Source: Clostridiales bacterium (GTDB lineage Bacteria > Bacillota > Clostridia > Lachnospirales > Lachnospiraceae). Taken from it: 64,000 bases of DNA. This document shows positions 41,473-61,292 of the stretch, piece after piece; positions within the stretch are counted from its first letter, which is position 1, and each line of letters starts with the position of its first letter. The stretch lies in assembly GCA_023663185.1 (NCBI GenBank), contig JAMPHY010000009.1:1751-65750 (forward strand), written 5' to 3'. The notes under the pieces are model-generated. The model did not search any database, was not told the DNA's origin, and saw nothing but the letters and a program-made list of their open reading frames with translations. The translations under genes were made by a program, and so were the position numbers.

Positions 41473-41973
41473 TCAATTCTTTATCTGCCGTCCCTCATGG
41501 TTTAAATGGTAATTATCCTTATAAATCAACTGCGAAATCGGTACAAGCTCATATCCCTGCTCTTGTAAAGAATTAATCAACGTTTCCAACGCCTGCGCCG
41601 TATATTTTGCGCCGTTATGACAAAGAATAATGCTGCCGTTTCCGAGGTTCTTATGCTTCGTCACTGTTTCAATAATAGAGTCCACGCCATAGTCTTTCCA
41701 ATCGAGAGAATCCACGTCCCACTGAATAGGATAATAGCCACATTTCTTCGCTACATTTATGACGTCATTGTCATAATCTCCATACGGTGGACGGAACAAA
41801 AACATCTCGTATCCTGTCAGCTCTAGCACCTTATTATGTACCTGCATCAGTTCGTCTTCGCATTCACTGTTAGAGAGCTGAGACATATTTTTGTGGTTCT
41901 CGCTGTGGTTTCCCAAGTCGTGCCCGTCTGCGAGAATCGCTTTAACGTCGTCCGGGTAGGATTCCACCCACCC
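41473..41973 (-). pseudogene. polysaccharide deacetylase (PdaB-like), 3' part cut off by the element
   Basis: About 166 codons encode the C-terminal two thirds of a NodB-type deacetylase domain, starting at the att core: GWVESYPDDVKAILADGHDLGNHSENHKNMSQLS (metal-binding H-x3-H motif), FRPPYGDYDNDVI, WDVDSLDWKDYG and SIILCHNGA. The N-terminal third with the catalytic aspartate is at 60917-61292. An ATG inside the recombinase gene (42024) could start a peptide, but it would lack the aspartate motif. Joining the two parts across the 10-bp core gives a continuous protein of about 288 residues. Confidence 0.9.
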
Positions 41974-43549
41974 AGATTGGCATATCGTAAACACTTTGTC
42001 CGCCTTTTCTGTTGCCTTTATCATAATCTATTGACAGAAAATCCAAACCCTTTAAAAAGTCAAGATATACGTCTAGTCTCTTTTCATAAACTTTAATTTG
42101 TTCAATATGGGAACACATCAGCGGAACTTCTATTCCTTTTTCTGTTTTATTTTCAAACAACGCCTTTACCTGATTCAGCCGTTCAAGCAACTCGCCGTTT
42201 TCTTCTTTCTTCTCCTGCACCCTGATTTCCTTTTCACTTAATGCCGCCATCTGCTCGGAAATATCATTCACTTTTGAAGAATAATCGGTTTTTGTGATTG
42301 TTCCGTCTAATAACAAATCCATAAGAGTATCTTTTCTTTTATTCAATTTTTCCTTTTGTGCTTGTATATCTTCTACATTTTCACCACTATAAGAATCAGT
42401 CAATCCTGCATAAATCTTTCTAATTGCCTTACTCAATACTTCTTCTTTCTTTTCCTTTGCAATTAACTGATTACCCAAATGCTCTATCACAGATAATATT
42501 TCATCTTCCTTTAAATTGAGCGACACACATTTCATTCCTGTTTTTTCCCTAACTTTTCCTGAACGTGCGCCCTCACTGCAATACCAGTAAATACCTTGCG
42601 TCCTTTTGTTTCTCCAATATTTAGACTCGCACTCGCCGCATATGATTTTAGAAGATAGCAATGTATTGCCTTTATTAATCCCTACATTATGCGTCCTGTC
42701 TACTGTTTTTCTACTGTTTATCTGCGCATTGGCTTTTTCCCACAAATCATCACTGACAATACGGGGCACAATCCCTTCTCTGTATATCCACTCGCTCTCA
42801 GGATTTTTGATAATCTTCTTGGTCTCAAAATCAAAATGCTCCTTATTCATTACTGCAATTCCTTTGTAAAGCGGATTTTTCACAATTTCACGGATTGTAT
42901 TTTCTGATAAGGTTTTACCATTTCTATTCCTGATACCGTCGTCATGTAAGATTCTTGCAACTACGCGCCCACCCAAGCCGTCAGCAAACAGTTTATATAT
43001 CCGCGTGACAAGTTTTGCCTCTTCTTCATCTATTAATATTTCACCATTGACATTTTTAAATCCCCATGTGCGATTAGTAATAATCGGCTTGCCCTTTTCC
43101 TGCCGCCGCCTTTTAGCTGCATTGCCTTTCTTACTCAAATCGCGGCTGTATTCTTCTGCCATCATTGCTTTAATGCCGTATATGAATTTATCATTCGGAT
43201 TAAAAAATATATTCTCCAAATAGAAATATAACCTTTTCTGGTTCTGCGTAATTTCATGCAAAAATATGTACCAATCCATCGTGTTACGCTGTAAGCGCGA
43301 CTGGTCTTTTACTACAATAATGTCAAACTTATCCTTTTTAATATCATCAAGCAGGCGTATATATTCATTTCTCTTCTTTGCCTGTGTGCCTGTAATCCCT
43401 TTATCTATATATCTGTCTACCAGAATCCAGCCTTTATCATGAATAACATCTATATTTTCTTCTATCTGCTTTTCGATTGCGTTTAGCTGCTCTTCTTCCT
43501 CTGTACTCACTCTCGCATAGAATACGGCTCGCAACTTCTTCTCTTCCAT
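41942..43549 (-). CDS. large serine recombinase (integrase)
   Basis: 535 residues. The catalytic N-terminal domain begins RAVFYARVSTEEEEQL with the nucleophilic serine and has VVKDQSRLQRNTMDWY. The recombinase domain follows (TWGFKNVNGEILIDEEEAKLVTRIYKLFADG; VARILHDDGIRNRNGK), then the zinc ribbon (CGECESKYWRNKRTQGIYWYCSE) and a coiled-coil motif. It inserts and removes the element at the deacetylase core. AAGGAGTG precedes the ATG. The last six codons (ILPGRR) lie in host DNA beyond the att core, so the C-terminus differs in the circular form. Confidence 0.96.
   Translation of the reverse strand: MEEKKLRAVFYARVSTEEEEQLNAIEKQIEENIDVIHDKGWILVDRYIDKGITGTQAKKRNEYIRLLDDIKKDKFDIIVVKDQSRLQRNTMDWYIFLHEITQNQKRLYFYLENIFFNPNDKFIYGIKAMMAEEYSRDLSKKGNAAKRRRQEKGKPIITNRTWGFKNVNGEILIDEEEAKLVTRIYKLFADGLGGRVVARILHDDGIRNRNGKTLSENTIREIVKNPLYKGIAVMNKEHFDFETKKIIKNPESEWIYREGIVPRIVSDDLWEKANAQINSRKTVDRTHNVGINKGNTLLSSKIICGECESKYWRNKRTQGIYWYCSEGARSGKVREKTGMKCVSLNLKEDEILSVIEHLGNQLIAKEKKEEVLSKAIRKIYAGLTDSYSGENVEDIQAQKEKLNKRKDTLMDLLLDGTITKTDYSSKVNDISEQMAALSEKEIRVQEKKEENGELLERLNQVKALFENKTEKGIEVPLMCSHIEQIKVYEKRLDVYLDFLKGLDFLSIDYDKGNRKGGQSVYDMPIWVGGILPGRR
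41964..41973 (-). other. attachment core, left end
   Basis: GGGTGGGTGG on the minus strand, shared with the right end. It falls inside both the recombinase 3' end and the deacetylase frame. Confidence 0.85.
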
Positions 43550-43562
43550 ATATCCGCACTCC

Positions 43563-43817
43563 TTAACTGAATTTGTATAGAACCGTCTGGTATTCTTCCT
43601 CTGTAATTATACCATGAGTTCTCATAATATTCAACAAATACTTAATAACCATTTTTTCATCTTCCGGTGAAATATTTGATAGTTCTTCTTTCAAGCACAA
43701 TTCCTCATTTTTGGAAGAATTACTATTAATATATTCAGGTATATATAATTTATCAATCGTAAAAGAAAGATATTGATTATAATTTCGCGTTTTAATCTGT
43801 GTAGCTGTATTAATAAT
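43563..43817 (-). CDS. small SHOCT-like protein, no standard start codon
   Basis: An open frame that reads as coding: INTATQIKTRNYNQYLSFTI, then DKLYIPEYINSNSSKNEE, ending with EDEKMVIKYLLNIMRTHG and IITEEEYQTVLYKFS, which resembles the SHOCT (short C-terminal) pattern. It ends 13 bases before the recombinase start, a position where small accessory proteins often sit. There is no ATG, GTG or TTG before residue 56. The best-placed start is ATT at 43817, 6 bases after AAGGGA, giving 84 residues. It may instead be a 5'-mutated remnant. Confidence 0.5.
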   Translation of the reverse strand: MINTATQIKTRNYNQYLSFTIDKLYIPEYINSNSSKNEELCLKEELSNISPEDEKMVIKYLLNIMRTHGIITEEEYQTVLYKFS

Positions 43818-44005
43818 ATCAATTCCCTTCGTGTAGAAATTTATTATAAAAGGGTACTGCTGAAAATTGCGACAGTACCCCTGAAATTATATTAGTATTT
43901 AGTTTTTTATTATTGTTCAATATATTTGGAATATGGCCTGCCACTTTAAGCGAACCATATTCACATCGGCTTTGTTTTCAGTTGCATTGTTTCGCTACTT
44001 TTAAA

Positions 44006-44311
44006 TTATCTTCTTCTGTTTCTTGCGTTTGAATTGACTGTGTTGCTTGTGTTTCCTACGATATTGCAGATATGAAGTTCATTCAACCGTCCCATCGGTT
44101 CTTTTACATAAACACTCTGCATTGGTCTTAATTCAATGTTGGGTATGCCGCACGGAACTGTTCTTTCTTGTCCTGTTTCGTCTGTGATTACATAACCGTT
44201 CTTTTCGATTCTTTTTATGACTGTTTTGTAGGTGCGGTCAACTTTACAGTTAGCAACCGCCCTATCAACCATGCCTTGTATGGATTTGAAGATTTCTTGT
44301 TTGAAGTTCAT
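44006..44311 (-). CDS. phage-like small protein of unknown function
   Basis: 101 residues: helical head (FKQEIFKSIQGMVDRAVANCKVDRTYKTVIKRIEKNGYVITDE), then a short beta-like part ending MGRLNELHICNIVGNTSNTVNSNARNRRR. Small proteins with the 'VYVKEPMGRLNELHI' ending accompany phage structural genes in Clostridia; the exact role is unknown. AAAGGAGTTGG precedes the start. It lies alone between the recombinase partner and the membrane-protein gene, separated from the tail remnant by a rightward cargo gene. Confidence 0.5.
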   Translation of the reverse strand: MNFKQEIFKSIQGMVDRAVANCKVDRTYKTVIKRIEKNGYVITDETGQERTVPCGIPNIELRPMQSVYVKEPMGRLNELHICNIVGNTSNTVNSNARNRRR

Positions 44312-44353
44312 TTTTTAGATTTCCAACTCCTTTCAAATAGTACGTCAAACATG

Positions 44354-44452
44354 CTATCTTATAAATAAATGTATACCAATTAAAATAAGTCCAATAAATT
44401 CTACAAATATGCAGAAATCACAACAAGATATATTTTCAGTGAGCATTTCCAT
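44354..44452 (-). CDS. 32-residue hydrophobic peptide
   Basis: ATG at 44452 follows AAGGAGG at ideal spacing. The product MEMLTENISCCDFCIFVEFI continues with a short hydrophobic stretch (GLILIGIHLF) and ends IR. One predicted membrane span. It faces away from the membrane protein gene at 44536. Such very short membrane peptides are sometimes type I toxins; no antisense RNA was identified, so this is only a possibility. Confidence 0.5.
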   Translation of the reverse strand: MEMLTENISCCDFCIFVEFIGLILIGIHLFIR

Positions 44453-44473
44453 TAAATTAATCCTCCTTCATAT

Positions 44474-44502
44474 TTGATATATTTTATACAATATGGTAAA
44501 AT
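44474..44502 (+). promoter_or_regulatory. promoter of the membrane-protein gene at 44536
   Basis: TTGATA, a 17-base spacer and TAAAAT lie about 35 bases before the ATG, which has a strong AGAGGGGGG ribosome site. Confidence 0.6.
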
Positions 44503-44535
44503 TTTCTTGACTATTGTAGAGGGGGGTAAATATTT

Positions 44536-45357
44536 ATGGCATATATATTTCAAAATCAGCAATTTATAATCAACTGTCTTCTTAGTATATTGGGAATTAT
44601 ATTTACTATATACTTTTCAATTAAACGTAAATATAGACAGCTTGCATATACTTATAATACCATACATATTACTTCTACTAATGCCGATAATAATTTTATT
44701 AAAAAATTATCATATAACGAGCATCCTATAAATAATATTTATTACACAGATTTAATTATATGGTGTAAAGGCAAAATCGTAATTAATGATTCAGATGTTG
44801 CGCCAAAGTCACCACTCAATATTAATATTCCTGATAATATGAATATTCTTGATTATCATATTATTGCTCAAAATGAACTGGCAAATAATATTAAGTTACA
44901 AACAAATGATAATTGTATAAAAGTAACTTTTGATTATTTAAGTTATAAAAACGGTGTGGCAATACGAATCATTCATAGCGGAAACAGCAAAAACATGTCT
45001 GTTACATGTAAACTTAAAGATGGGAGAAGGACTTTATTTATTTGTAAACGTAAAGGATTTTTATATAAATTTTTAAACAATAAATTTGTCAAATATATAT
45101 TATCAAGCAAAATAACAAGTTTCATTTTTATTATATTTACAGTATTTCTTTTCCCTAATGCATTTGTACAATCAGGTAATTATTCAGGAAATAACTTTTT
45201 TGATTTGCCTAGCACAAACATATTTATGAATTTAGATTCGTTGATAATTTTAATTTTGTGTTGCATATCATTTATACTTGCAATTCCACATGTTTATAAT
45301 ATTTTTAAAACAGAAGTACCAAACAATCTGCTTAACAATACATCTTGCGAAAAATAA
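44536..45357 (+). CDS. membrane protein with extramembrane beta-rich domain, cargo gene
   Basis: 273 residues. One membrane helix lies at the N-terminus (FIINCLLSILGIIFTIYFSI), a soluble domain at about residues 35-180 contains YYTDLIIWCKGKIVINDSDVAPKSPLNINIPDN and VTFDYLSYKNGVAIRIIHSGN, and two more helices lie near the C-terminus. The pattern 'iWn.G...i..sDi....pl.i' with 'FDYl....G..i.iiHtG' recurs in uncharacterised bacterial proteins, often on mobile DNA. It is oriented against the surrounding genes with its own promoter, as expected of a cargo or defence gene. Very AT-rich. Confidence 0.6.
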   Translation: MAYIFQNQQFIINCLLSILGIIFTIYFSIKRKYRQLAYTYNTIHITSTNADNNFIKKLSYNEHPINNIYYTDLIIWCKGKIVINDSDVAPKSPLNINIPDNMNILDYHIIAQNELANNIKLQTNDNCIKVTFDYLSYKNGVAIRIIHSGNSKNMSVTCKLKDGRRTLFICKRKGFLYKFLNNKFVKYILSSKITSFIFIIFTVFLFPNAFVQSGNYSGNNFFDLPSTNIFMNLDSLIILILCCISFILAIPHVYNIFKTEVPNNLLNNTSCEK

Positions 45358-45422
45358 TTATCTTCATGGCTGCACCCGTTTTTCAGAGTACAGCCATATT
45401 ATCATAATATACTTCTCTAAAA

Positions 45423-46413
45423 TTATCTGATTCTGCTTTGCTGGTCAACATAGTTATGGAATCCGTTGAATTGCTTATCTAATTCTTTACCTAAAATATT
45501 TCCAAGACGCTCTGCAACTTGCTGTTCAGTAACTCCGGGACATGTAACATTGATGTTATTCACTATAGGTTGTTGTACATTCCTATTATTAGCAATATTA
45601 TTGATAACTGTATTATTCGTTATCTCCTTTGTCCATTGTTCCATCTGCTTTTGACCTGCAAACACGGCATTAGAAATAATTTCTTCCTCGCCGCTAAGAA
45701 TCTTTTGTACTAATGGCTCAAGGGCTTTCATTAGGTCATAGCCTTTATCGCCTTGCTGGAGTGGACGTAAAATATGTCCATCAGGTGTAAGAATCTTACC
45801 ACCGCCAACAGTTCCATCAGCATATGCCTTTCCGCGTCCAGATATACGTCCATTCTTTAAGAGTTCTTCCGTCTGTTTATGATTGAAAATGATATCACCC
45901 TTATGAATGTTCGTCATTTCAGCCCCATTATCACCAACAGTAAAGAATTTACCGTCACGGACAATGAGTTCCCTTCCAACCTCGCCTACTAAAGCATTAT
46001 ACTCATTAGACTGTACAGCCCAGTTGCCTTGTACATTCGCAGTCCCTTCCACATGTGCGCTTCCTTCAACACGCGCTTTGCCGCCGCCACCATGAGAAGC
46101 ACCATTACTAAATTCACCAGTAATAGCACTTGCAGAACCATTACCAACCACATTTAAAGTCACTGTAAATTCCTTGCCGTCTAAATCTTCAAGCGTAGAC
46201 TTTATTGAAGTGACCTTTTCATCAGCTTCACCCAGCGGAACATTTAATTCTTCCCATGCAACAGTCTGCGCAGGAATACCGCTTTCTTCGTCTAATGCCG
46301 CCTCTGTCTGTTCTATCAGTGAAGACATTAAGCTTTATGTTTATAGCATTAAATTGTCTGTTTAATATTGAAAATGTTTCCTCAACTGTTATCGCGTTCC
46401 CTGTAATAATCAT
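45423..46413 (-). pseudogene. phage tail tape-measure gene remnant
   Basis: The 3' part (45423-46328, about 301 codons) encodes a typical tape-measure C-terminus: GGKARVEGSAHVEGTANVQGNWAVQ, GEVGRELIVRDGKFFTVGDNGAEMTNIHKGDIIFNHKQTEELL, and IVNNINVTCPGVTEQQVAERLG. Tape measures are usually far longer. A start with strong GGAGG lies at 46413 (MIITGNAITVEETFSILNRQ), but that frame leaves the tape-measure frame near 46330. Most of the gene has been deleted and the remaining piece is joined out of frame to a short 5' piece. Confidence 0.75.
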
Positions 46414-46438
46414 AATAATTTTACCTCCATCTAATCAT

Positions 46439-46648
46439 TTATTTTAAATACACCGCTTCATACACTCTCATAATCTTTTGCTGACCTTCTTCATAACTTT
46501 TACAAGTTGCAATAATTTCCTGAACTTCTTTTCTATATAGAAGACCGAAATCTCTAGCCAGTGTTTTCAAGTCTTTCTTTTCCTGCTTATTTATAGTTTT
46601 CTTAATCAGCTCTTTTGATATTTCTGCCGAAGATATTCCACTCTCCAT
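46439..46648 (-). CDS. small helical protein, unknown
   Basis: 69 residues, all helical by eye: MESGISSAEISKELIKKTIN, then KQEKKDLKTLARDFGLLYRK and EVQEIIATCKSYEEGQQKIM. Its start overlaps the stop of the LexA-like gene, so it is translationally coupled. No function recognised. Confidence 0.55.
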   Translation of the reverse strand: MESGISSAEISKELIKKTINKQEKKDLKTLARDFGLLYRKEVQEIIATCKSYEEGQQKIMRVYEAVYLK

Positions 46649-46905
46649 TATTCATTTTCCTCCACTTTCACCAGATTATAACCTATCACTCTTATTGATC
46701 TAGGTATATTTTCTTTCATATCAATTTTCCCTAAAATCTGTAACATCAAAAGATGATTGTATACACTCGCTGTAGATTTTAAACCAGTTCCATCACATAT
46801 TTCTTTTATAGACGGAGAATAACCATTTTTCTTGATAAACTCCACAATGAAGTTATACACTCGTTCCCGTCCGTTTCCTCTGGCTGATTTATTTACACTT
46901 TCCAT
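46648..46905 (-). CDS. LexA-type DNA-binding domain protein
   Basis: 85 residues matching only the winged-helix N-terminal domain of LexA: RERVYNFIVEFIKKNGYSPSIKEICDGTGLKSTASVYNHLLML. The peptidase/dimerisation half is absent, so it cannot self-cleave on its own. Such truncated LexA-like proteins are common on clostridial elements and probably regulate local genes. It is part of a leftward string with overlaps to its neighbour. Confidence 0.85.
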   Translation of the reverse strand: MESVNKSARGNGRERVYNFIVEFIKKNGYSPSIKEICDGTGLKSTASVYNHLLMLQILGKIDMKENIPRSIRVIGYNLVKVEENE

Positions 46906-46911
46906 AGCTTA

Positions 46912-47136
46912 TCACCTGTCCTTTAATCCATGTTCTTCATTCCATGTAGATTCAATATCATCCATAATGTCAATTAGATTCTGCTTCGCATCCTTTAACC
47001 AATAGAGCGAACCATTTAATTCACATGGCTTTCCAATCTCGAATTGATGAATAATGTGTTCCTCTAACTGTTTTCGTCCTACTTCTACGCCCAACTTGAA
47101 AAATTCATTGTTTGTCAAATCCACATTGTTACCCAT
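46912..47136 (-). CDS. small protein, unknown
   Basis: 74 residues from MGNNVDLTNNEFFKLGVEVG (47136; GGAGG upstream, which overlaps an earlier ATG at 47151). Contains KQLEEHIIHQFEIGKPCELNGSLYWLKDAKQNLIDIMDDIE. Not recognised. First gene of a leftward set with the LexA-like gene and the tail remnant. Confidence 0.55.
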   Translation of the reverse strand: MGNNVDLTNNEFFKLGVEVGRKQLEEHIIHQFEIGKPCELNGSLYWLKDAKQNLIDIMDDIESTWNEEHGLKDR

Positions 47137-47243
47137 TCTGTTATCCTCCATCTGTCTGTTTTATTGTTTAGAATCTCTTACTGTTTCCGTTCTCTTTCTA
47201 TATATAATAAATTTCTACCCGATTACTCCAAAAAAATTAAAAT

Positions 47244-47885
47244 TTATTTATTTTCTTTCTTTTTCATAATTCCTACATATTTGTAAAATGTACTCACCGC
47301 TATACCCTGCAATTTAGCAAACTGGACAACTGAAATACTTCCATATTCTCCGGATTGAAATTTACTATATTCCTTAATAAATTCTTTCGGTACTCCTGTA
47401 GCTGGTCTGCCTAGCTTTTTACCTTTTGCCTTTGCTACGTCTAAACCCTGCATAACTCTATCATGCATCTTTTCTTTTTCCTGCTGTGCTATATGTGCTT
47501 TTAATGTAACAAAAATATCAATTATCATCTTTGATAAGCTATCATTATTCATTTTTTCCCAATCATTCAGGAATGGAACATCTAAAGCAACTACCCTGAT
47601 TCCTTTTGCTTGTAAATCCTTAATCTCTACAATCACATCATCTGCATTTCTACCTAATCGGTCTACATCAGATATAACCAATATGTCACCAGTTCTAAGC
47701 TGTTTCTTCATATTGTGATAGTTTGGTCTGTTATCCGCTTTTGTTCCTCCGGTAATAACATCAGACACAAATTCATCAATGTTAAATCCATTGTTCACAG
47801 AATATTCAATGATGGTCTGTTGCTGCCTGTCTGTTCTTTGATGATTAGTCGATATCCTCATATATGCAAAAATCTTGTTTTCCAT
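47244..47885 (-). CDS. serine recombinase, resolvase/invertase family
   Basis: 213 residues. Catalytic domain MENKIFAYMRISTNHQRTDRQQQ with the active serine, ILVISDVDRLGRNADDVIVEI, and a C-terminal HTH (VVQFAKLQGIAVSTFYKYV) after LGRPATG. Small serine recombinases resolve or invert DNA between short sites. No flanking inverted repeats or invertible segment were identified. Distinct from the large integrase at the left end. GGAGG lies 8 bases before the ATG. Confidence 0.93.
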   Translation of the reverse strand: MENKIFAYMRISTNHQRTDRQQQTIIEYSVNNGFNIDEFVSDVITGGTKADNRPNYHNMKKQLRTGDILVISDVDRLGRNADDVIVEIKDLQAKGIRVVALDVPFLNDWEKMNNDSLSKMIIDIFVTLKAHIAQQEKEKMHDRVMQGLDVAKAKGKKLGRPATGVPKEFIKEYSKFQSGEYGSISVVQFAKLQGIAVSTFYKYVGIMKKKENK

Positions 47886-48838: not shown

Positions 48839-49315
48839 TCATTCCTCACTTTCTAACAATACAGAAGGATTCCATATCTCAATCATCTTATATCCTTCTA
48901 AGTTTGTAATCGCCCTTACGCCTCTGATCGTCTTCACATTAACAATATGCTTAAAATTCCACGATATAATACAATCACATTCATTTATAATGGCTGCCCC
49001 TATATGTTGGCAGTCATCAAAACTCTTTTGTGTCAATATACCCATATCAATAATCTTTTCTGCCATCGCCACAACACCGTCCGTAATATCCAATGTTGTG
49101 AACTGGATTTCATTTAAGCAGTCCATAAGTTGTGTTTTCTTCGGCTCAGAACATTTTTGTATCTCTCTTAATGTTACCGTAGACAAATACACATCATACT
49201 TGCCATCTTTGAACATTTCCCATAATTTTCTTGTGTCTGCCATCTTCTCAGGTACATCTTCCTGCAACAAATGACTGACAACCGATGTATCTAAATATAC
49301 CTTCAATTTCCGCAT
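48839..49315 (-). CDS. PIN-domain ribonuclease toxin (VapC-like)
   Basis: 158 residues. LKVYLDTSVVSHLLQEDVP carries the first PIN aspartate; SEPKKTQLMDCLNEI, 'SFDDCQHIGAAIINECDCIISWNFKHIVNVKTI' supply the remaining acidic residues. PIN toxins cut RNA. Two tandem antitoxin-like genes follow with 2-base gaps, so the order is toxin first, unlike most vapBC pairs. The stated function is by family. Confidence 0.88.
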   Translation of the reverse strand: MRKLKVYLDTSVVSHLLQEDVPEKMADTRKLWEMFKDGKYDVYLSTVTLREIQKCSEPKKTQLMDCLNEIQFTTLDITDGVVAMAEKIIDMGILTQKSFDDCQHIGAAIINECDCIISWNFKHIVNVKTIRGVRAITNLEGYKMIEIWNPSVLLESEE

Positions 49316-49736: not shown

Positions 49737-50291
49737 CTAGTCAATCATTTCCGCTAATGCTTTCCTAATCCGCCTTATCTCCACATAATAAGTTGACCGC
49801 CGAATCTCCAATGACAGATAGATTTCTTTACTGCTATATCCGTCAAGTTTCATTTGTGCAATTTTCCGTTGTGTATCTGAAAGATTATTTAAAAATTCCG
49901 TCAATCGCTCCGCTTCCAACATTTCCGATTCAGGGGAATTTCCACTTATATCACCAATGCAATTATAAAGGTTTTCCGTTTCTGAATATTCCGCATCCAG
50001 ACTAACAACCGTTTCCGATGGTTTCCGTTTCTTTGCGTTCTCCGTTCTGAAATGGTTTCCAATCTCCGACCTCATATATTGCTGACTGATAAAAGGAAAT
50101 GCGTATTTTTTCCGCAAATCTTCCCTGCGGTTATATATCTGCACCGCCTTTAAATATCCAAACACGGCTATATCATAATAAGTTTCCACGTCATAACCGT
50201 ATTGGTGCAAAAATCCATATATAAGATTATGGTTTTCCATCGCAAATTTCCGTTCTGCATCTGTCAATTTTTCCAATTTAAAATTATCCAA
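49737..50291 (-). CDS. sigma-70-like protein of mobile elements
   Basis: 184 residues from a TTG at 50291 (GGCAGGA upstream). The N-terminus LTDAERKFAMENHNLIYGFLHQYGYDVETYYDIAVFGYLKAVQIYN resembles sigma region 2, and the C-terminus LSDTQRKIAQMKLDGYSSKEIYLSLEIRRSTYYVEIRRIRKAL resembles region 4. Such proteins are found on conjugative and phage-like elements. A shorter-match relative lies at 51916 on the other side of the IS. Its ability to direct RNA polymerase is not shown. Confidence 0.75.
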   Translation of the reverse strand: MDNFKLEKLTDAERKFAMENHNLIYGFLHQYGYDVETYYDIAVFGYLKAVQIYNRREDLRKKYAFPFISQQYMRSEIGNHFRTENAKKRKPSETVVSLDAEYSETENLYNCIGDISGNSPESEMLEAERLTEFLNNLSDTQRKIAQMKLDGYSSKEIYLSLEIRRSTYYVEIRRIRKALAEMID

Positions 50292-50503: not shown

Positions 50504-51775
50504 ATTGTTATCTATCGTCAGGAAATTTTACAAGACATCCGTCTCTTCACTTCCCAGCCAGCCGCTAAGTTTTATGATTCCTTATTTTTAAATCTTGACC
50601 TCTCATTCGTCCAAGAGTATCCGCCTACCGGACGTAAAGGCTTTTCCAACCATGCTATGCTCTGTTCCTTTATTGTTATGAAATGCGAAGGCTTTTCCAT
50701 GATATCTGACCTTGTTGATTATCTGAATAACAACCTTCTCATTGCACATTACTGCGGTTTTGATATTTCCAAACCGATTCCTTCCTACTGGACTTTTGAC
50801 CGGTTCCTGATGGGCTTCGATAATTCCATCCTCTCTGACATTATGAAGTCACAGGTCCTTTCCCTTGCTGAAAAAGGTATTATTGATACTTCTTTTATAG
50901 GTCTGGATTCCACTCCCGTAGAAGCCAATACCTCTCAGAACAACCCAAAATCTTTTTTCAGCAATAAATTTAATCCTCAAAACCAGCCAAAAGCTGATAA
51001 AGACTGTAACCTTGGCGTACATACCGCTTCCAACCAGACAGATGAGAAAAATTATTCATTCTACTGGGGTTACAAAAACCATGTCCTTGTAGATTGTATC
51101 TCAGGACTTCCCATTTATGAAATAACCACAACCGCTGAAGTTGCTGATTCCACCGTTGCACTGGATATCCTTGCTGATACTCACCGTTTTCTTCCTGTTT
51201 CTGACTGTACCTTTCTTGCAGACAAGGGCTATGATGTCAAAAACATCTACAATCAGGTAAAACAGCTTTATCATGGTGAGTGCATCATCCCTTTGAATAA
51301 AAGAAACACACAAAATCCAAAGCTGCTTCCACAAGGAAATCCTGTCTGCGAAGCCGGGCTTGCCATGTGGAAAGATGGTAAGTTTTCCGACCGTGGTCGT
51401 ACCCGTCAAAAATTTTGTTGTCCGTTAAAAAACTCCTCCGGCACGGACTGCCCCTGCCATCATAAGAACTTTTATAACGGAAAGAAGCATCGCGGCTGCA
51501 CCAGATATATAACGATCCCTGACGACCTGCAGCTTCTTCTTGACCGTGGCAGTAAATATTTCAAGCGCACTTATGCCCTGCGTACAGAATGTGAACGTTA
51601 CAATTCCAGATTCAAAGGTACGGGGCAGGAACGTATGTGGGTAAGGAACAAAAACTCTGTTACAAACCTAAATACCCTTGCCCACATCAGTCTGCTGGCT
51701 GTTGCCATTTCAGCCATCAATATGCCGGGAAGCCAGTCTTACAGAAAATTAAAATCCATAAAACGGACTGCCTGA
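50504..51775 (+). CDS. DDE transposase (IS1182/IS4-like)
   Basis: DDE triad is visible: first Asp in IGLDSTPVEANTSQN, second in FLADKGYDVKNIY, Glu in LRTECERYNSRFKGTG. A Cys/His cluster (CCPLKNSSGTDCPCHHKNF) lies between. 372 residues follow the first ATG (50657), but the frame is open and coding to 50494 (IYRQEILQDIRLFTSQPAAK). The full-length start is then non-ATG: ATT at 50504 or ATC at 50510 after AAAGGAG, giving about 423 residues. Terminal inverted repeats were not resolved, so the IS limits and exact family are open. Confidence 0.85.
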   Translation: MVIYRQEILQDIRLFTSQPAAKFYDSLFLNLDLSFVQEYPPTGRKGFSNHAMLCSFIVMKCEGFSMISDLVDYLNNNLLIAHYCGFDISKPIPSYWTFDRFLMGFDNSILSDIMKSQVLSLAEKGIIDTSFIGLDSTPVEANTSQNNPKSFFSNKFNPQNQPKADKDCNLGVHTASNQTDEKNYSFYWGYKNHVLVDCISGLPIYEITTTAEVADSTVALDILADTHRFLPVSDCTFLADKGYDVKNIYNQVKQLYHGECIIPLNKRNTQNPKLLPQGNPVCEAGLAMWKDGKFSDRGRTRQKFCCPLKNSSGTDCPCHHKNFYNGKKHRGCTRYITIPDDLQLLLDRGSKYFKRTYALRTECERYNSRFKGTGQERMWVRNKNSVTNLNTLAHISLLAVAISAINMPGSQSYRKLKSIKRTA

Positions 51776-54006: not shown

Positions 54007-54525
54007 ATGAATAAATACTTTAAAGATGTTCACACACTGGAAGAATTAAGAAGACAATACAGGGATTTATTAAAGAAGTATCACCCTGATAACCCACAAG
54101 GTAGCACAGAAGCAACACAAGAAATCAACGCAGAATATGACAGACTTTTCAGAGTATTAAAAGATAGACATGAAAGCGAATCAGCGGACAACAAAGAGAA
54201 CAATGCAAAAACAGACTTCAATAATATGAAATATGACTTTTCAGAAGATCAGAAATTAAGGGATGTATTACAGCAGATTATATTTTTTGATGGTATCAAC
54301 ATTGAGGTGTGCGGCTCGTGGATATGGGCATTTAATTCATATACATATAGAAAAGAATTGAAAGATATTGGTTTTAAATATGCCCCTAAAAAACAAGCTT
54401 GGTATTGGCATAGTGAAGCATTCAGGAAAAAAGGACGCAAGAGCTTATCAATGGACGATATACGCAACTATTATGGAAGTACAGAGATAGAAGCAGAAGA
54501 AACAAAGAGATTGAAACAAGCGTAA
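54007..54525 (+). CDS. J-domain (DnaJ-like) protein of mobile elements
   Basis: 172 residues. N-terminal J domain: LEELRRQYRDLLKKYHPDNPQGSTEATQEINAEYDRLFRVLKD, with the HPD motif that stimulates Hsp70 ATPase. The C-terminal part (ICGSWIWAF-type aromatic region, YTYRKELKDIGFKYAPKKQAWYWHSEAFRKKGRK) is a conserved module of plasmid and element DnaJ-like proteins and may bind a partner. It has no zinc-finger domain of true DnaJ. Probably recruits host DnaK for element replication or gene control; this is inference. Confidence 0.88.
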   Translation: MNKYFKDVHTLEELRRQYRDLLKKYHPDNPQGSTEATQEINAEYDRLFRVLKDRHESESADNKENNAKTDFNNMKYDFSEDQKLRDVLQQIIFFDGINIEVCGSWIWAFNSYTYRKELKDIGFKYAPKKQAWYWHSEAFRKKGRKSLSMDDIRNYYGSTEIEAEETKRLKQA

Positions 54526-55061: not shown

Positions 55062-55098
55062 TACAGGTTATGAGTCTATACGCTCATAGCCTGTATTT
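55061..55098 (+). terminator. terminator ending the rightward set
   Basis: ATACAGGTTATGAG pairs with CTCATAGCCTGTAT (14 bp, one G-U) around an 8-base loop, starting at the stop codon of the preceding gene. Confidence 0.65.
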
Positions 55099-55709
55099 AT
55101 GCGTTGTAATAGTCTTAATTGTATGGTTATATTATGATTTTAGGCTCATTTTCGGCTTGAAATGGGATTATTGATAATTTATAGGGTAACGCCTGGAAAA
55201 TGGCTAAAATCGGCGTATAACGTGCTTATTTATGGGTATCTATGGCAACAGACACAAGGGTATATGCCGGTAGGTTTACATTTTATTTGAAGTGTTCTTT
55301 TTCTGAAAAGCCCACAGTAGTTCTACACACACGTCCGCTTAATTTTCTGACTTCCAAATTCATAGACCTTCAAAATCAACTGTACATCTTAGAATTTTAA
55401 TCAATATAAACATTACCCTACCAATTTACCATATATAACAATTCCATCTGAAATTTAAAGATATATCATCGATTAGAAAGCAAGAATATGATATCTGCAT
55501 ATGGACAATCACCAAACAGGGGTAGTGGTATGCTTCAATTCTACAGATAATTTACTACCCTATATAACCATGTACCCCTATACAAAACGCTAAATCTTAT
55601 CGAATGTCGCTACGTTATCTCAATAAGTGCAAGAAAATATACATCAAAACATCAGTAGATAAATATTGACTTTCTCATACCAATAACACATCTTGGGCAT
55701 TTTGAATGG
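55099..55709. other. non-coding stretch of about 610 bases
   Basis: Stop codons are frequent in all six frames and no ribosome site with a plausible start was found. AT-rich with no strong repeat. It separates the rightward set from the leftward nuclease group and may be the remnant of lost genes or contain a replication or transfer site that cannot be recognised by eye. Confidence 0.5.
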
Positions 55710-55973
55710 TTATTTCATCTTTATTAGGTTCTTTACCCAATGACAAAAAATTAAAATTTTAAAGTCAAATCTTTTATTTCTTTTGTCATACTCATCAAAA
55801 AAGCACTTTATTACAAAATCATTATCATTGTGAACACTTTTTGCCATATTATATACAAATTCAGAAACACCATTTTTATACCGATTAATTTCATTAACTT
55901 TTTCAATTATCTGTTCATCCGAAAAATTTTATATCCACGTTTTTAACATTTGCCGCTCATTTTCATAATCCAT
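55710..55973 (-). pseudogene. small gene downstream of the nuclease, with in-frame TAA
   Basis: ATG at 55973 starts MDYENERQMLKTWI, then TAA (55929-55931); the frame continues NFSDEQIIEKVNEINRYKNG, then VSEFVYNMAKSVHNDNDFVI to the TAA at 55710. The continuation reads as a genuine 72-codon protein segment. It is the last gene of the nuclease group, a typical position for an immunity protein. Inactivated or restarted internally. Confidence 0.5.
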
Positions 55974-56000
55974 ATAATTATCTCCCTTAAAATTTCACAT

Positions 56001-56825
56001 TCATGGTTTACAATTCCCACAAGGTTTATATCCATTATCTTTTAAAAACTTCCTTGGACATTCAATCTCTCTTTTATTATATTCTTCTATATTTTTAGCT
56101 TCATTGCAAATTGATTCATTACAATCTTTTTTATGAAATTTATGTGTAGCAATATTTAAAATATATGCTCTTCTCTTGTCCCTATATATTATATTAGGAA
56201 AGATATTTACACACCAGTCTTTATCTTCTTCACTCTTACCTTCTTTATAATTTATAGCAACTCCTGGCTGTGCATTATATATAAATTTATTAAAGCATAA
56301 TCCTTTTCCATTATCTTCGACAGAATATGCCTCCATCTGTACTCCTCTAACCAACTGATCGCCCTCATTCAATATTGGTGTGACGCGATACAATACTTGA
56401 TTTCTTGGGTTTTCCTCTAAATACTTTCTTACTTTATTCTCAAGCGGTAACATTCCTTTTTCATTCATATAACGTGTTCCTACAATAAGGTTTCTTTTAT
56501 CTGTTTTTTCTTTAAGTAATTGATAAGCAATTAAATGACAATAATTAAATAGATATTTGTCCCCTTTTATGAAATCATATTTATCAGGATAAATTTCAGA
56601 TACTCCGTTACTCTCATCAAGCCTTGACATATCAACAGATAAATCCTCCCCTTTGATACAGGCAAATGCGGAATATATTGTGTACTCTTCCCCACATCTT
56701 TCATAACTACCCAATTTCTTATATTTTTCACCTTGAAAGTTTTCACTAAAATCTGGTAAATTATTAGCAATTTTTATGCAGGGTTTTCCAAAATACTCTG
56801 GTATGTTTATTCCATTTATGTACAT
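56001..56825 (-). CDS. DNA/RNA non-specific endonuclease (EndA/NucA-like)
   Basis: About 274 residues from MYINGINIPEYFG (56825). The catalytic region is YLFNYCHLIAYQLL with the conserved His, then NLIVGTRYMNEKGMLPLENKVRKYL, VLYRVTPILNEGDQLVRGVQMEAYSVEDNGKG and FIYNAQPGVAINYKEG. The C-terminal tail has a His/Cys pattern (THKFHKKDCNES...GYKPCGNCKP) as in related secreted nucleases. No signal peptide is visible. It is the third gene after two small helical proteins, so it may be an effector of a toxin-immunity type unit. Confidence 0.88.
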   Translation of the reverse strand: MYINGINIPEYFGKPCIKIANNLPDFSENFQGEKYKKLGSYERCGEEYTIYSAFACIKGEDLSVDMSRLDESNGVSEIYPDKYDFIKGDKYLFNYCHLIAYQLLKEKTDKRNLIVGTRYMNEKGMLPLENKVRKYLEENPRNQVLYRVTPILNEGDQLVRGVQMEAYSVEDNGKGLCFNKFIYNAQPGVAINYKEGKSEEDKDWCVNIFPNIIYRDKRRAYILNIATHKFHKKDCNESICNEAKNIEEYNKREIECPRKFLKDNGYKPCGNCKP

Positions 56826-56908
56826 TTTTATCACCTATCCTTAACAACTATATTATTGATTTTAAGAATCTTTACTTTCATTATCTTTGGTTACTTAAAA
56901 CTAGAATT

Positions 56909-57151
56909 TTAACTACTTTTTATATTCTTGCTAATAGTCCTTATCCTTTCAAGAACATAATCGCAATTTTTCCAGACTAACCAACTACAATCCTTGTCCT
57001 TTTCAGCATTCATTACTTTAGTAATAATAGCAATATCAGTATCAAGCAATTTTTCTGCAATATTATCCCAATATTTAGAATCTATCCATCTTTTGAATCT
57101 TGGTTGATAATATTTTACTTCATCACATTCTGTACTCATAAAACCAGCCAT
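56909..57151 (-). CDS. small protein of the nuclease group, unknown
   Basis: 80 residues: MAGFMSTECDEVKYYQPRFK, then RWIDSKYWDNIAEKLLDTDI and ending VLERIRTISKNIKSS. Its ATG directly follows the stop of the upstream gene, so the pair is translationally coupled; a second ATG at 57139 is possible. Helical, soluble. Not recognised. Confidence 0.55.
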   Translation of the reverse strand: MAGFMSTECDEVKYYQPRFKRWIDSKYWDNIAEKLLDTDIAIITKVMNAEKDKDCSWLVWKNCDYVLERIRTISKNIKSS

Positions 57152-57448
57152 TCATTGTGACTTGATTTCTGCTAAGACTTTTAAAAAATCCACAAGCCTT
57201 TCATATACACAATTATAATAATCTCTTACAGTAGAATCTTTTTCTAATTCCATATCAATTAACTCCAATTTCCCTAATAAACTCTCAACACACGGCTTAA
57301 TTTCTTCAGACTTTGTAATAATTAGTCCACCTATTTCTTTTTTACCATCTTTTAATTCTTTACTCAGAAAAATTGCTTTATCTAATTCTTTTTCTATTTC
57401 TCTTATTTCTTTTCTTACCTCTTTACATGCATTTAATTTTGTCCCCAT
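57152..57448 (-). CDS. 98-residue helical protein heading the nuclease group
   Basis: Two long charged helices: MGTKLNACKEVRKEIREIEK, then ELDKAIFLSKELKDGKKEIG and a second helix ending LVDFLKVLAEIKSQ. GAGGAGAG lies just before the ATG. Size and helical-hairpin character recall small secretion-linked (WXG100-like) proteins, but no WXG motif is present, so the family is unknown. First of the group 57448 to 55710. Confidence 0.55.
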   Translation of the reverse strand: MGTKLNACKEVRKEIREIEKELDKAIFLSKELKDGKKEIGGLIITKSEEIKPCVESLLGKLELIDMELEKDSTVRDYYNCVYERLVDFLKVLAEIKSQ

Positions 57449-57623
57449 ATTTCTCTCCTCTTAAAAACAGCATTTTATTCCCAAATCAAACATTAATTTA
57501 TTATATCATCATACCAAAAATCCCATTTCACTTCCACATTTCAGCAAAAATAGCACAAAAACCGGCAAAATTTGCAAAAAAATAAGGCACACCAAACTTT
57601 TACATCTGATATGCCCTACATAA

Positions 57624-57971
57624 TCATTTTTTGGGTAATGTCCCATCCATAAAATGAATATACATCTCTTCAATTTTTTCCAAATCGTCTGGATGCAAAT
57701 CACCTATTTTAAAAATAAAATCTTCTGGTTGTAAATTCATCACCTTTGAAACTCTTGCCGTAGAAGCCAGTCTTAAATTTGCCTGCTGCCAATATAAAAT
57801 AGGTGTATCATATGGATCATTACTGCGCACTTTATGTTTTGTTACTTTAACGGAAAGCACTCCTAACTTATCTTCGTCCAACACAATAACTGGTCTGTTT
57901 ATAATCTGTGTATCGTCTTCCTCTAATGGAAATCCTACAAACCATACTTCTCCTTCGTGAAAATTGTTCAT
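57624..57971 (-). CDS. PemK/MazF-family toxin
   Basis: 115 residues. Typical strands: FHEGEVWFVGFPLEEDDTQIINRPVIVLDEDKLGVLSVKVTKHKV and SKVMNLQPEDFIFKIGDLHPDDLEKIEEMY. The 'GEVW...RPVIVL' pattern marks the MazF/PemK ribosome-independent mRNA endonuclease fold. It starts 1 base after the stop of the small upstream gene, the usual antitoxin-toxin order. GGAGAAATAG precedes the ATG. Confidence 0.82.
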   Translation of the reverse strand: MNNFHEGEVWFVGFPLEEDDTQIINRPVIVLDEDKLGVLSVKVTKHKVRSNDPYDTPILYWQQANLRLASTARVSKVMNLQPEDFIFKIGDLHPDDLEKIEEMYIHFMDGTLPKK

Positions 57972-57972
57972 A

Positions 57973-58206
57973 CTATTTCTCCATCTGTCTTTTAGAATTC
58001 ATCAATTCAAATAAATCATCCCATTCAGATTCATCTACCCACTCATCATTTTTAGAGATTACAGGACGATTCTGTTTATTATGCTTTGTATTAGCAGTTG
58101 CAAACAAATATGCCTGTTCCCTATTAGTTTCCATATATTGTGCTAATGCCGACATAGAATCATCCTCCTTTGCTTTCTCTATACTTGTCTCGTTTTCTTT
58201 ATCCAT
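57973..58206 (-). CDS. antitoxin of the PemK/MazF-like pair
   Basis: 77 residues, acidic and probably disordered: MDKENETSIEKAKEDDSMSA, LAQYMETNREQAYLFATANT and the C-terminal NDEWVDESEWDDLFELMNSK, which may bind the toxin. Good ribosome site GAGGTGAT. Assignment rests on position, size and acidity. Confidence 0.65.
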   Translation of the reverse strand: MDKENETSIEKAKEDDSMSALAQYMETNREQAYLFATANTKHNKQNRPVISKNDEWVDESEWDDLFELMNSKRQMEK

Positions 58207-58399
58207 ATTATATCACCTCAGTTATCAGAATTCAATAACCGAGCATATAATATCTTCTACTCTTATCATCTTGTAGGTAAGAGTCTATCACATACTCAGC
58301 CAAAAATCAATTCTTTTCACATATTATGCCTAGTAATGATATAAACATTCATGCTTTTAGCATACCAGATAGAATATCCCTATCCGATATGCCTTATAA

Positions 58400-58855
58400 T
58401 TATTTATAGTTCAACGCCTGAATATATACTTCTGCCATGTGTGGATCAATATTTGCTAATCTTTCTATATTTTTATAGAAATCTGCCTTTTCAGCCTCTT
58501 CCTTTTTCTTTTGTTTTATCACCTTTCGCTCCGCCTCTTTCTTTTCAAGGAAATCATTTACAAAAGCATCATTTCTAGCAACACGGTTTTCATGCTCCTG
58601 CTTTTCGCACTCAATACGTTCCTGTCTACGAATATTAGCCCTCTCATACTCATCTTCTCTCTGTTGTCTGATACTTTTACATGTCCTCTCAACATTTAGA
58701 ATATCATCATATAATTTATTATTTGGTTTTGCATGTTCTAGCAGACCACCATACCTATCTTGGACTGTCTGCTCGCGTTCCTGTTTTGTTCCGTAATCTA
58801 CATGATTATTATCCATATATTTATCTAATAAATGTCCATATTTGTTTTCTAGCAT
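58400..58855 (-). CDS. coiled-coil protein, unknown
   Basis: 151 residues. The N-terminus MLENKYGHLLDKYMDNNHVD is followed by a long Arg/Glu/Lys-rich helix (YERANIRRQERIECEKQEHENRV, KKEAERKVIKQKKKEEAEKAD). It ends with a short ERLANIDPHMAEVYIQALNYK. Not recognised. GGAGATTTT precedes the start. Confidence 0.5.
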   Translation of the reverse strand: MLENKYGHLLDKYMDNNHVDYGTKQEREQTVQDRYGGLLEHAKPNNKLYDDILNVERTCKSIRQQREDEYERANIRRQERIECEKQEHENRVARNDAFVNDFLEKKEAERKVIKQKKKEEAEKADFYKNIERLANIDPHMAEVYIQALNYK

Positions 58856-58918
58856 AATTTAAAAATCTCCTTATCTTTATAATTTTTTGGTCTTCCCACA
58901 ATAAAATCTTCCTAAAAT

Positions 58919-59923
58919 TTAATATGGTTGTACTTCAACCTTTAACAAAGCATCATATACTTTCTTTGGCACTTTATTCTTATACTTATCAGCCATAATC
59001 AATATATCTGCCTGTTTATGCCTTTTATATTCCTCAAATGCTTCTTCCGGTGAAGTCCAATAAGATAACTTAATCAGTTCATCATGTCCATATGGTTTAA
59101 TCTCACCATAATACATTTTCATAGCACTGTCATACCTTACCCCTAGCGGTAAATCCATTCTGGCACTCTTCCATTTAGACAGCTTATGTTTCTTGCAATT
59201 AGACAGCATAGTATTTAATGTCTGCGGAATAATACAGCATTTATCAGGCGCATATTCTTTATTGTCTGGAAATAGTAAGTCTTTGTCTACTGCCATTGAT
59301 TCACCATCATACTCATAATATTCAGCACTCCACCACTCAGCAAAAGAATCCTTATCATTTTTCCACAAATCACACATAAATGAACCATCATACGCTTCAT
59401 CACCCTTATAGCATCTATTATAGATGCCGTTCCAGATTGAATATGCTGTGTTGGATTTCAGTGTAATATATGGTATATATTCCTGCTGTCTGCCTAATTC
59501 TTCTACAAGCACAATCCCACGCTGTAAATCAATATATTCTTCATTATTCACCCATACAAGATTTTTGTAAAAGCAGTTATCCTTATCCTTGTCAATGTGC
59601 CATATTTTGTTATATTTATCACTCTTTTCAAGAAAATGCCCTGCTACTAATTTATCTGTATAGCTTTCAATCTTCTTATTTACACCACTTAGCGTAAAAT
59701 GTGCATATCCTGTTTTATGCACACGGAAATTGCCATGCAAATTATTTATCAGCCTTCCATGATTACTGATCCAGTAATTATTTGTACCATTTACTAATAC
59801 AAAAACCTCATCATCGGCAATCAATTCTATTCCTGACGCTTTAATATCCAATACCCTTTTATCTGCTATGGATAAATATTCTTTAAATTCTTTTCTTTGT
59901 TCTAATTTCTTTTTACTTCTCAT
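58919..59923 (-). CDS. NUMOD4/HNH-like homing-type endonuclease
   Basis: 334 residues. NYWISNHGRLINNLHGNFRVHKTGYAHFTLSG is a NUMOD4-like DNA-binding module. IWHIDKDKDNCFYKNLVWVNNEEYIDL is an HNH-like site with the H-x-D-x-x-x-x-N pattern. The C-terminal half (GVRYDSAMKMYYGEIKPYG...SPEEAFEEYKRHKQ) resembles an AP2-type DNA-binding part. Phage and element homing endonucleases have such parts. No intron or intein was seen near it, so it is probably free-standing. Confidence 0.78.
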   Translation of the reverse strand: MRSKKKLEQRKEFKEYLSIADKRVLDIKASGIELIADDEVFVLVNGTNNYWISNHGRLINNLHGNFRVHKTGYAHFTLSGVNKKIESYTDKLVAGHFLEKSDKYNKIWHIDKDKDNCFYKNLVWVNNEEYIDLQRGIVLVEELGRQQEYIPYITLKSNTAYSIWNGIYNRCYKGDEAYDGSFMCDLWKNDKDSFAEWWSAEYYEYDGESMAVDKDLLFPDNKEYAPDKCCIIPQTLNTMLSNCKKHKLSKWKSARMDLPLGVRYDSAMKMYYGEIKPYGHDELIKLSYWTSPEEAFEEYKRHKQADILIMADKYKNKVPKKVYDALLKVEVQPY

Positions 59924-60194
59924 TTTTACTTATAATAATTCCTTTCGATATGACTTTAGATAACCCACCACGATTTCATGGTTGTTAATATTTGAGCATC
60001 TAAGAATAAACGCTCCGAATCCTATTCATAATAAAAAAGACAATACGACTTATTCATACTGTCTCTGTAAATACCATATTCAGTTGTAATATATTTTTAT
60101 TGCTATGAGGCAGCAGGTTTCTAAATTTGTGCAATTATTTTGAACTCCCACTAAATTTAATGTAATTTCACTTTTAATTATCTGCTCTTAATAA

Positions 60195-60647
60195 TCAGTC
60201 ATTTTCTTCATTCTTATTATCTTCCGTTTCTATACCTTCCGCTATATATCCGCTGCCTTTTAAAATAGCAAGCTGTTGTTCGCTGAATGGAAGCTTCTTT
60301 AAACCATAGATACCATTTTTTACATTTTGTATCAAAACCCTGTTCATATCATCTCTTGTTTTAATGCTTCTGTATATCCTGAGTTTCGTATGTGGGGGAT
60401 TACCGCCTTCTTTATTACAGTTCGGCATATTATAAGCCATGCACACTTTTAATTCTGGTATAATTGTTCCTACTTTTGTAATATGTACGCTCTCTCCTGC
60501 TGATATTGCTTTTTGACATTCCTCCATATACATATCCAGAATATTTTTAATTACTTTCTCATCATAAATATTATCCTTCCTTCCATTGATGCGTTTTGCC
60601 ATTTTAGACGCATTTAATGATATCTTTGTTCCTTTTGCCCTCGGCAT
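60195..60647 (-). CDS. HU/IHF-like DNA-binding protein of mobile element
   Basis: 150 residues. The N-terminal part KISLNASKMAKRINGRKDNIYDEKVIKNILDMYMEECQKAISAGESVHITKVGTIIPEL follows the HU pattern (helices then 'G..v.i...Gt' strand). It continues with KVCMAYNMPNCNKEGGNPPHTKLRIYRSIKTRDDMN. A C-terminal extension ends acidic (TEDNKNEEND). HU-like proteins bend DNA and may aid the recombinase or replication of the element. AGGGGGT lies upstream. Closest gene to the right att core. Confidence 0.72.
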   Translation of the reverse strand: MPRAKGTKISLNASKMAKRINGRKDNIYDEKVIKNILDMYMEECQKAISAGESVHITKVGTIIPELKVCMAYNMPNCNKEGGNPPHTKLRIYRSIKTRDDMNRVLIQNVKNGIYGLKKLPFSEQQLAILKGSGYIAEGIETEDNKNEEND

Positions 60648-60908
60648 TTTCTTTTATACCCCCGTTACTCTATTTAATTTTTGCCAATGAAACAAGCTTT
60701 TCAAGTCTGTGTCTACATTAAGGCACTAAATAAGCCTCCATCAGTCATATTCCTACAACTGATAGGGGCTTATGCTAATACCCTAATATCTTTAATTAAA
60801 TATATGCCCTTACTTCAATTTCCCTACACTCAAAACCGCTCTTCTTCCTATGGCTTGTCCGCTGTAAACAGCACGTTCCACGCCATATTTCAGTTTTTTC
60901 ATGTATGC

Positions 60909-61292
60909 CTATCCGACCACCCACCCCCCTGTCATAAAAAACGTCACCTTAACATTATGCTTCTTCAATATTTCCAGAATCTTAGCGGTATCATCATTCC
61001 CCCAAGCCGCATCGAAGCTGAGCGCAACCTGCTTTTTATCTGTCTCTACGCAATAAATCGGAAGTTCCCTTCCGTTCACCGTATTGCTGACGGTTGCGGC
61101 TCCCGGCAGCACTCTTACGACGCCGCGTATCAATGCCGCCGTTGCAAGCAGAAACGCCACAGACATTATCACGCGCATTATGATTTCCTGCCGTACCTCT
61201 GCCTTACCTTTGTTTTCATCGCTAATTTTACTTTCCAACTCATTTAAAGCCAGCTTAATTTTGTCATTCCATGTTCTTTTATTTTTGCTCAT
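60909..61292 (-). pseudogene. polysaccharide deacetylase (PdaB-like), 5' part cut off by the element
   Basis: 127 codons: cytoplasmic head, one membrane helix (IMRVIMSVAFLLATAALIRGVVRVL), then the start of the NodB domain with VALSFDAAWGNDDTAKILEILKKHNVKVTFFMTGGWV, which holds the catalytic aspartate pair. It ends with two element-derived residues and TAG. The other part is at 41473-41973. In the uninterrupted form it would be a membrane-anchored deacetylase acting on peptidoglycan or another surface glycan; the DAAWG motif is like that of PdaB (DISWG). Confidence 0.9.
60917..60926 (-). other. attachment core, right end
   Basis: GGGTGGGTGG on the minus strand, identical to the left core. It lies in the deacetylase 5' fragment at codons for GWV; the frame then runs into element DNA and stops within three codons. 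Confidence 0.85.

Follow-up and report, generated by a model that had tools for sequence, protein, structure and literature searches.

Integrative elements within a PdaB-like deacetylase gene of a Clostridiales bacterium and its relatives: a putative skin-like arrangement used by several recombinase lineages

Sporulation genes interrupted by intervening elements are on record for sigK, spsM, spoVFB, gerE and yabG (PMC5595907, PMC10747680). The skin element of Bacillus subtilis and Clostridioides difficile carries a serine recombinase and lies in sigK, which is restored exactly upon its removal; in C. difficile, a directionality factor of 72 amino acids is placed under sigma-E and SpoIIID while the recombinase is constitutive, and independent integrations at different sites of this one gene have been reported (PMC5025042). 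The prophage SP-beta sits within a spore-envelope gene, spsM, that is rejoined in sporulation (PMC4191935), gin of Bacillus cereus ATCC10987, a non-phage intervening element of gerE, has a 9-bp core and encodes three serine recombinases (PMC5595907), and vfbin in spoVFB and yin in yabG add further sporulation genes to the series (PMC10747680). Here, we analyse a 64,000-nucleotide stretch of a Clostridiales bacterium (contig JAMPHY010000009.1 of assembly GCA_023663185.1; hereafter the window), in which an element of about 19 kb splits a polysaccharide deacetylase gene. We consider it probable (about 0.68) that it belongs to a group of integrative elements, compact in size, each with a large serine recombinase (LSR) that recognises the DNA coding for TGGWV in a PdaB-like gene, and that such elements are excised precisely in some cells, most likely sporulating mother cells.

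The split gene and its uninterrupted counterpart

With both core copies included, the element extends from 41964 to 60926 of the window; measured from core to core, it is 18,953 bp long. The core, GGGTGGGTGG (minus strand), is found exactly twice in the 64 kb, at 60917-60926 in the 5' half of the gene and at 41964-41973 in the 3' half. The 5' half (60917-61292, minus strand, ATG at 61292) is part of an open reading frame (60909-61292) that meets a stop shortly beyond the core, and the 3' half occupies 41473-41973 on the same strand. Both match the Pfam model Polysacc_deac_1 (E 1e-10 and 7.8e-22, respectively) over complementary parts of the profile (3-44 and 40-122 of 124), and joining them across the core yields a single open frame of 288 codons. 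The original prediction, that an element of about 18.95 kb splits a NodB-type deacetylase gene, that both junctions have a 10-bp core in common and that the join gives a continuous frame of about 288 codons, is borne out by these figures. As in skin-type elements, the gene is split in frame at a short repeat from which precise excision would restore it, and a site-specific serine recombinase is encoded on the element. The G+C content is lower within the element (about 0.30-0.40 in 2-kb windows) than in its flanks (0.39-0.45, in the windows from position 36 kb to 42 kb and beyond 61 kb). No second copy of the gene was found in the same genome at E 0.001, the only related genes being two paralogues with 28% and 31% identity.

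Comparison with an intact relative had been set beforehand as the test on which the prediction could fail. The gene of G007 (locus L086), the best match among 60 relatives searched, is uninterrupted and agrees with the predicted join: 115 of the 120 nucleotides centred on the junction are identical without insertions or deletions, the same frame runs through, and the proteins share 276 of 288 amino acids, again without gaps. One of the ten core bases differs in G007. The flanks of the two loci are collinear at about 90-93% identity; the collinear stretch measures about 3 kb on one side and, up to where the contig ends, 0.8 kb on the opposite side. The ratio of non-synonymous to synonymous divergence (dN/dS) between window and G007 is 0.08 for the 5' half and 0.014 for the 3' half.

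Insertion sites and recombinases at one gene

The recombinase of the window element (535 amino acids; 41942-43549, minus strand) carries Resolvase, Recombinase and zinc-ribbon domains on one chain and is thus an LSR. A scan for its relatives, covering one genome per species and by design only close relatives, returned 21 loci. In 19 of them the LSR is at least 66% identical, and all 19 sit at this deacetylase gene, which excludes chance; the other two (37-38% identity) have no match to the gene. Site and orientation are those of the window (site 2, TGGWV) in 18 of the 19 loci. The nineteenth is inverted: the LSR of L079 (5215-7063) adjoins the 5' half but faces the other way, which would fit an inverted insertion of the element. 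The 3' half of the gene overlaps or abuts the end of the LSR gene in 17 of the 19 (L069 among them), and a short piece of it lies beside the LSR in L063. Among viral contigs (IMG/VR), only distant relatives of the LSR were found (three loci at 34%), and the same is true of phage records (280 records, all below 60%).

Elements at site 2 range from about 2.3 kb (L063) through 3.3 kb (L072, L073), 7.7 and 8.5 kb (L067, L076) to the 19 kb of the window, and their cargo varies: L080 encodes a MATE-family transporter, and L073 a GHKL-domain protein. In the window (41942-41973) and at most site-2 loci, the LSR frame reads through the core and extends into deacetylase DNA (around YDMPIxVGG), that of L072 stopping earlier; the C-terminus of the LSR would therefore change on excision. 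The cores are so short and imperfect that defining them as the longest common substring gave wrong or out-of-frame joins at most of the diverged loci, and this definition was dropped in favour of a codon-by-codon view of the junctions.

The gene is interrupted at other positions as well. Sites were mapped by aligning an intact gene to the loci, the junctions being then inspected codon by codon. Site 1 falls on AWGN, about residue 97; site 3 falls on WDVDSLDW, about residue 209; and site 4 is near RPPYG, about residue 187 (L133 and G142). L063, L069 and 3' pieces of the gene in G009 and G022 give signs of a fifth site at AGHD (about residue 138), to which no recombinase could be assigned. When 32 recombinases, a subset of those available beside sites 1-3, were placed in a midpoint-rooted FastTree tree, those of site 1 (11 sequences), site 2 (11) and site 3 (10) formed one clade each (support 0.66, 0.83 and 1.0), with a mean identity between sites of 18-22%. 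Two site-4 recombinases are 24% identical to each other and stand apart in the tree. It appears from these sequences that several mutually unrelated recombinase lineages converged on the gene at different sites.

Some genes carry two elements: at sites 1 and 2 in G008 and L080 (same contig), at sites 2 and 3 in G036 and L064 (same contig) and also in L068, and at sites 1 and 3 in G086, the partner of the G036 site-3 half being uncertain. Perhaps L063 and L069 likewise hold two, at sites 2 and 5. Rather tentatively, and at less than even odds, one mother-cell wall gene could be seen as the docking gene of at least three unrelated recombinase lineages, each using its own conserved motif; genes with two elements would then need two recombinases, forming a two-lock developmental DNA switch.

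Among 37 genomes of the same genus, the present one included, the gene is split with a recombinase on the element in 11 (G000, G008, G010, G012, G015, G025, G026, G029, G030, G031 and G036; the 5' half lies outside the stretch read in G015, G025, G026, G030 and G036), probably split in three (G011, G022, G033) and intact in 20, some with a diverged N-terminus and one, G016, with an N gap. Three could not be classified: G001 has no orthologue, G003 only a 3' fragment, and the gene of G004 meets a contig end. G016 had been a candidate for a split at site 3 and was rejected, as its contig holds the joined gene with the N gap and a second 3' piece is differently flanked. A paralogue served as control in 23 of these genomes (G000-G022): it is apparently split in one (G022) of the 22 that have it at E 1e-20, a threshold that could hide short pieces. 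In the same genomes, the target gene is split or probably split in 7 of 20 classifiable cases (G001, G003 and G004 dropped). The control is supportive, on small numbers. The paralogous deacetylase gene of G022 appears to lie in two parts about 5 kb apart (C4:26868-27050 and 32195-32596).

Two further observations concern site 3. In G266, whose genome is a single contig, about 46 kb separate the two halves (C1:1395697-1442548), which makes this the largest element seen. Several genomes with an intact main gene contain extra 3' deacetylase pieces that start at site 3 behind DNA resembling an element junction (attR-like; L148 at 5807 and 12321, L149 at 6754, L100 at 10401, L102 at 9263, L205 at 23, and L197). 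These pieces are apparent scars of former elements.

Selection on the halves, possible rejoined forms and sporulation

The halves of the split genes examined are under strong purifying selection (omega 0.015-0.046). A complete 3' half is present at 14 of the 20 site-2 loci (the window and L063-L081) and is open to the normal stop in all 14. At the remaining six loci, the 3' half enters a site-3 element (L064, L068), is interrupted at site 5 (L063, L069), reaches the end of the contig (L075) or is missing (L079). For these 14 halves (164 codons) the codon model gave an omega of 0.046 (0.057 at the start of the fit). LSR and gene distances over the same 14 loci are uncorrelated (Mantel r = -0.04; 2820 of 5000 permutations as high), and part of this selection history may therefore predate insertion. 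The picture is clearer at site 3. Here, 17 genomes were taken in and the intact G211 was excluded from the count; none of the 32 half alignments from the remaining 16 contains an inner stop, some halves being only partly covered. The two halves are on one contig or on overlap-linked contigs in 7 of the 16 (G241, G266, G231, G201, G059, G029 and G222). Across eight split genomes in family f17, the 5' half (113 codons) has an omega of 0.025 and the 3' half (76 codons) one of 0.015.

Two species of one genus, G231 and G201, have in common a 15.5-kb site-3 element, the two copies of which align over their full length at 85.8% identity, next to a 6-kb flank at 85.7%; because the two values agree, the element was inherited with the chromosome. 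Between the two species, one half of the gene differs by 44 synonymous and 7 non-synonymous changes (dN/dS 0.018; synonymous divergence, dS, 1.48) and the other by 23 and 2 (dN/dS 0.013, dS 0.86). Such values on a vertically inherited element make passive decay unlikely in this pair. For the pair G266/G259, dN/dS is 0.043 for the 5' half, dS being saturated for the 3' half. The evidence for a maintained gene comes mostly from relatives and from another site, rather than from the element of the window. In contrast, a copy in G035 (C43) has stops and an LSR remnant; the same genome has two other, open copies.

Contigs break at, or at most 22 nucleotides from, the site-3 crossover in 4 of 20 genomes examined (G244, G222, G050 and G198), a raw count that was obtained through matches ending at contig ends. 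In G244, contig C51 ends at the crossover and has an exact 127-nucleotide overlap with C125, which continues into the 3' half and so gives the rejoined gene. In G222, C28 and C27 overlap exactly over 77 nucleotides; C27 continues into element sequence, and C28 breaks off after the final base that the element junction (attL) and the predicted join (attB) have in common. Contigs of G050 and G198 overlap in the joined form by 17 and 7 nucleotides, respectively (the latter by eye, and weak). The likeliest explanation of such forks at the crossover is that both forms were present in the reads, which would mean excision if they came from one clone and could mean two strains in a metagenome. A contig of G184 (L201; C93:1-60) starts 3 nucleotides before the TGGGG core of site 1.

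SpoIVA scores above cut-off in 54 of 61 genomes searched, with 643 bits in the genome of the window. The best NCBIfam model for the gene of an intact relative is spore PdaB (TIGR02764), at 219.2 bits against a cut-off of 237.4. The description of the gene as PdaB-like therefore stands as a likeness, and does not extend to equivalog status. A motif resembling a promoter -10 element, CATATACT, lies 36 nucleotides before the ATG (61321-61328, minus strand). The form CATATA[C/T]T occurs 21-38 nucleotides before the start in 23 of 29 upstream regions, which are related and non-independent and in which the start was taken by script as the first ATG of the frame; mononucleotide shuffles gave 0.9%. 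The likeness is to the -10 element of sigma-E promoters and is limited to that element. In C. difficile, three polysaccharide deacetylases are under sigma-E, a parallel at the level of enzyme class (PMC3789822).

Serine recombinases were also met at other sporulation genes. A SpoIVA gene of G054 (L198; C54) is split (3372-4595 and 11455-11736) by an element that encodes a serine recombinase (C54:8857-10329); both halves contain TATACATAT, across which an in-frame reading was made by eye. In G052 (L199; C39:1772-3928), a sigK-type gene is truncated beside a serine recombinase, in a skin-like manner, and in G041 (L200; C99:1161-3031) a partial match to the sigK model adjoins one.

By analogy with these elements' described counterparts, we infer that excision takes place and that it is most likely timed to sporulation. 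The LSR, probably with a small upstream protein as directionality factor, would cut the element out precisely in some cells and the gene would be rejoined in frame; following the example of skin in sigK, these cells would most likely be sporulating mother cells. Because excising mother cells die, it would be the forespore that keeps the element. The deacetylase gene is presumed to be a cell-wall gene of the mother-cell type; as such it need be whole only late in sporulation, and would therefore be a harmless landing place. The candidate for the directionality factor is a small stop-to-stop frame directly upstream of the LSR (43563-43886, minus strand; conserved part about 43563-43751), and all site-2 loci except L072 and L081 (18 of 20, the window included) have a similar frame at this position. 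Against Pfam, it has a sub-threshold likeness to SHOCT (E 0.02-0.03 in two of three tested; 0.03 for the window). It is proposed for this role because the factor of C. difficile skin is likewise small, and a skin-like scheme with a constitutive LSR and its partner under sigma-E would fit the position of the frame.

Several points weigh against this account. Excision of the window element was not observed: the only 3' half in its own assembly is that of the split gene, and no contig-break sign comparable to those at site 3 was found for it. No promoter could be assigned before the LSR or the small frame, and the latter has no ATG where its conserved part starts. The lack of correlation between LSR and gene distances implies that site-2 elements move, and several of these insertions, that of the window included, may be recent. 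At site 3, the halves are on different contigs in 9 of the 16 genomes (in G244, G050 and G198 among them, only a contig break separates them, in the joined form), no site-3-type recombinase was found in G244 and G198 at E 1e-25, and the contig breaks in drafts may reflect mixed strains instead of excision. Finally, no orthologue was found in G001 (87% complete); the gene may therefore be dispensable.

The original prediction had left open whether the split is a developmental switch or a passive disruption; the open halves, the omega values of 0.015-0.046 and the G231/G201 pair favour a maintained, excisable gene. It is unlikely, though worth serious thought, that a conserved, dispensable gene is simply targeted, its halves being intact since the insertions are young, and that the gene is lost while the element stays. 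The uncorrelated distances at site 2, the uninterrupted gene of G007, the G035 copy with stops and the attR-like scars (downstream of the gene in G161, G084, G024 and G010, apart from it in G016) would all suit such a history. Yet no decayed half was found among the 14 site-2 3' halves and the 32 site-3 half alignments, the element of G231 and G201 was passed on vertically over a species divergence with dN/dS of 0.013-0.018 in the gene, and the 11 split genomes of the genus have no second full copy among the matches listed. Excision could also be independent of sporulation, a low rate in all cells supplying the rejoined gene by a kind of bet-hedging as in active lysogeny. We regard this as improbable: the rejoined forms or crossover forks in the G244, G050, G198 and G222 drafts and the constitutive synthesis of the C. 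difficile skin recombinase itself (PMC5025042) are in its favour, but the spore-type gene family and the conserved sigma-E-like motif point to a need that is late and specific to one cell type.

Two other explanations have far less in their favour. The halves might be made as separate chains and then assembled, in keeping with the conservation of both and with an in-frame ATG for the window 3' half within the recombinase gene; however, in L068, a stop six codons upstream of the junction W closes the frame of the 3' half, and insertion sites differ by species, so that every break point would have to work, which makes a split protein very improbable. An assembly artefact, conceivable in a draft of 54 contigs, is next to impossible, given that the junction recurs across independent assemblies and that the site-3 halves of G266 are about 46 kb apart on a single contig.

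Element content and comparison with known systems

Besides the LSR and the small frame, the window element encodes, on the minus strand, a fragment of a tail tape-measure protein (45423-46328; phrog_167, E 6.2e-9) and, by profile match, a LexA-type DNA-binding protein (46648-46905), a small serine recombinase of the invertase/resolvase type (47244-47885), a PIN domain protein (48839-49315), a sigma-70-like protein (49737-50291), a PemK/MazF-like protein (57624-57971), an HNH endonuclease-like protein (58919-59923) and an HU-like DNA-binding protein (60195-60647; 22.9 bits, barely above the cut-off of 22.4). A DDE transposase (50657-51775; profile match) and a DnaJ-domain protein (54007-54525; 29.1 bits, barely above the cut-off of 27.8) are on the plus strand. 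The tape-measure fragment is the sole structural match among ten element proteins scanned against PHROGs, so that the element does not qualify as a complete prophage.

No split PdaB-like deacetylase gene turned up in the open-licence literature searched. Since sigK, too, has been reported to carry independent insertions at more than one site, the kind of element counts as known; what appears new within that literature is the gene itself, together with its convergent use by several lineages. There, intervening elements of sporulation genes are described per single gene and mostly per single strain. Here, one gene is struck independently by several recombinase lineages, at separate sites and across a bacterial order, and selection on it can be measured. 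This makes it possible to test whether such elements are parasites choosing a harmless place or switches kept by the host, and provides a set of recombinases with their native target sites within one gene.

Compared with skin, the present elements interrupt another gene, with three recombinase lineages, signs of five sites and some genes with two elements, and their excision is predicted. SP-beta is an active prophage (PMC4191935), whereas the window element has the tape-measure fragment only, among the proteins scanned. The gin element measures 28.6 kb and lies in a different gene (PMC5595907), and is likened to ours by its description rather than by comparison of recombinases. Genes other than ours are also involved in the cases of vfbin and yin, and no deacetylase is among those listed in the introduction of PMC10747680.

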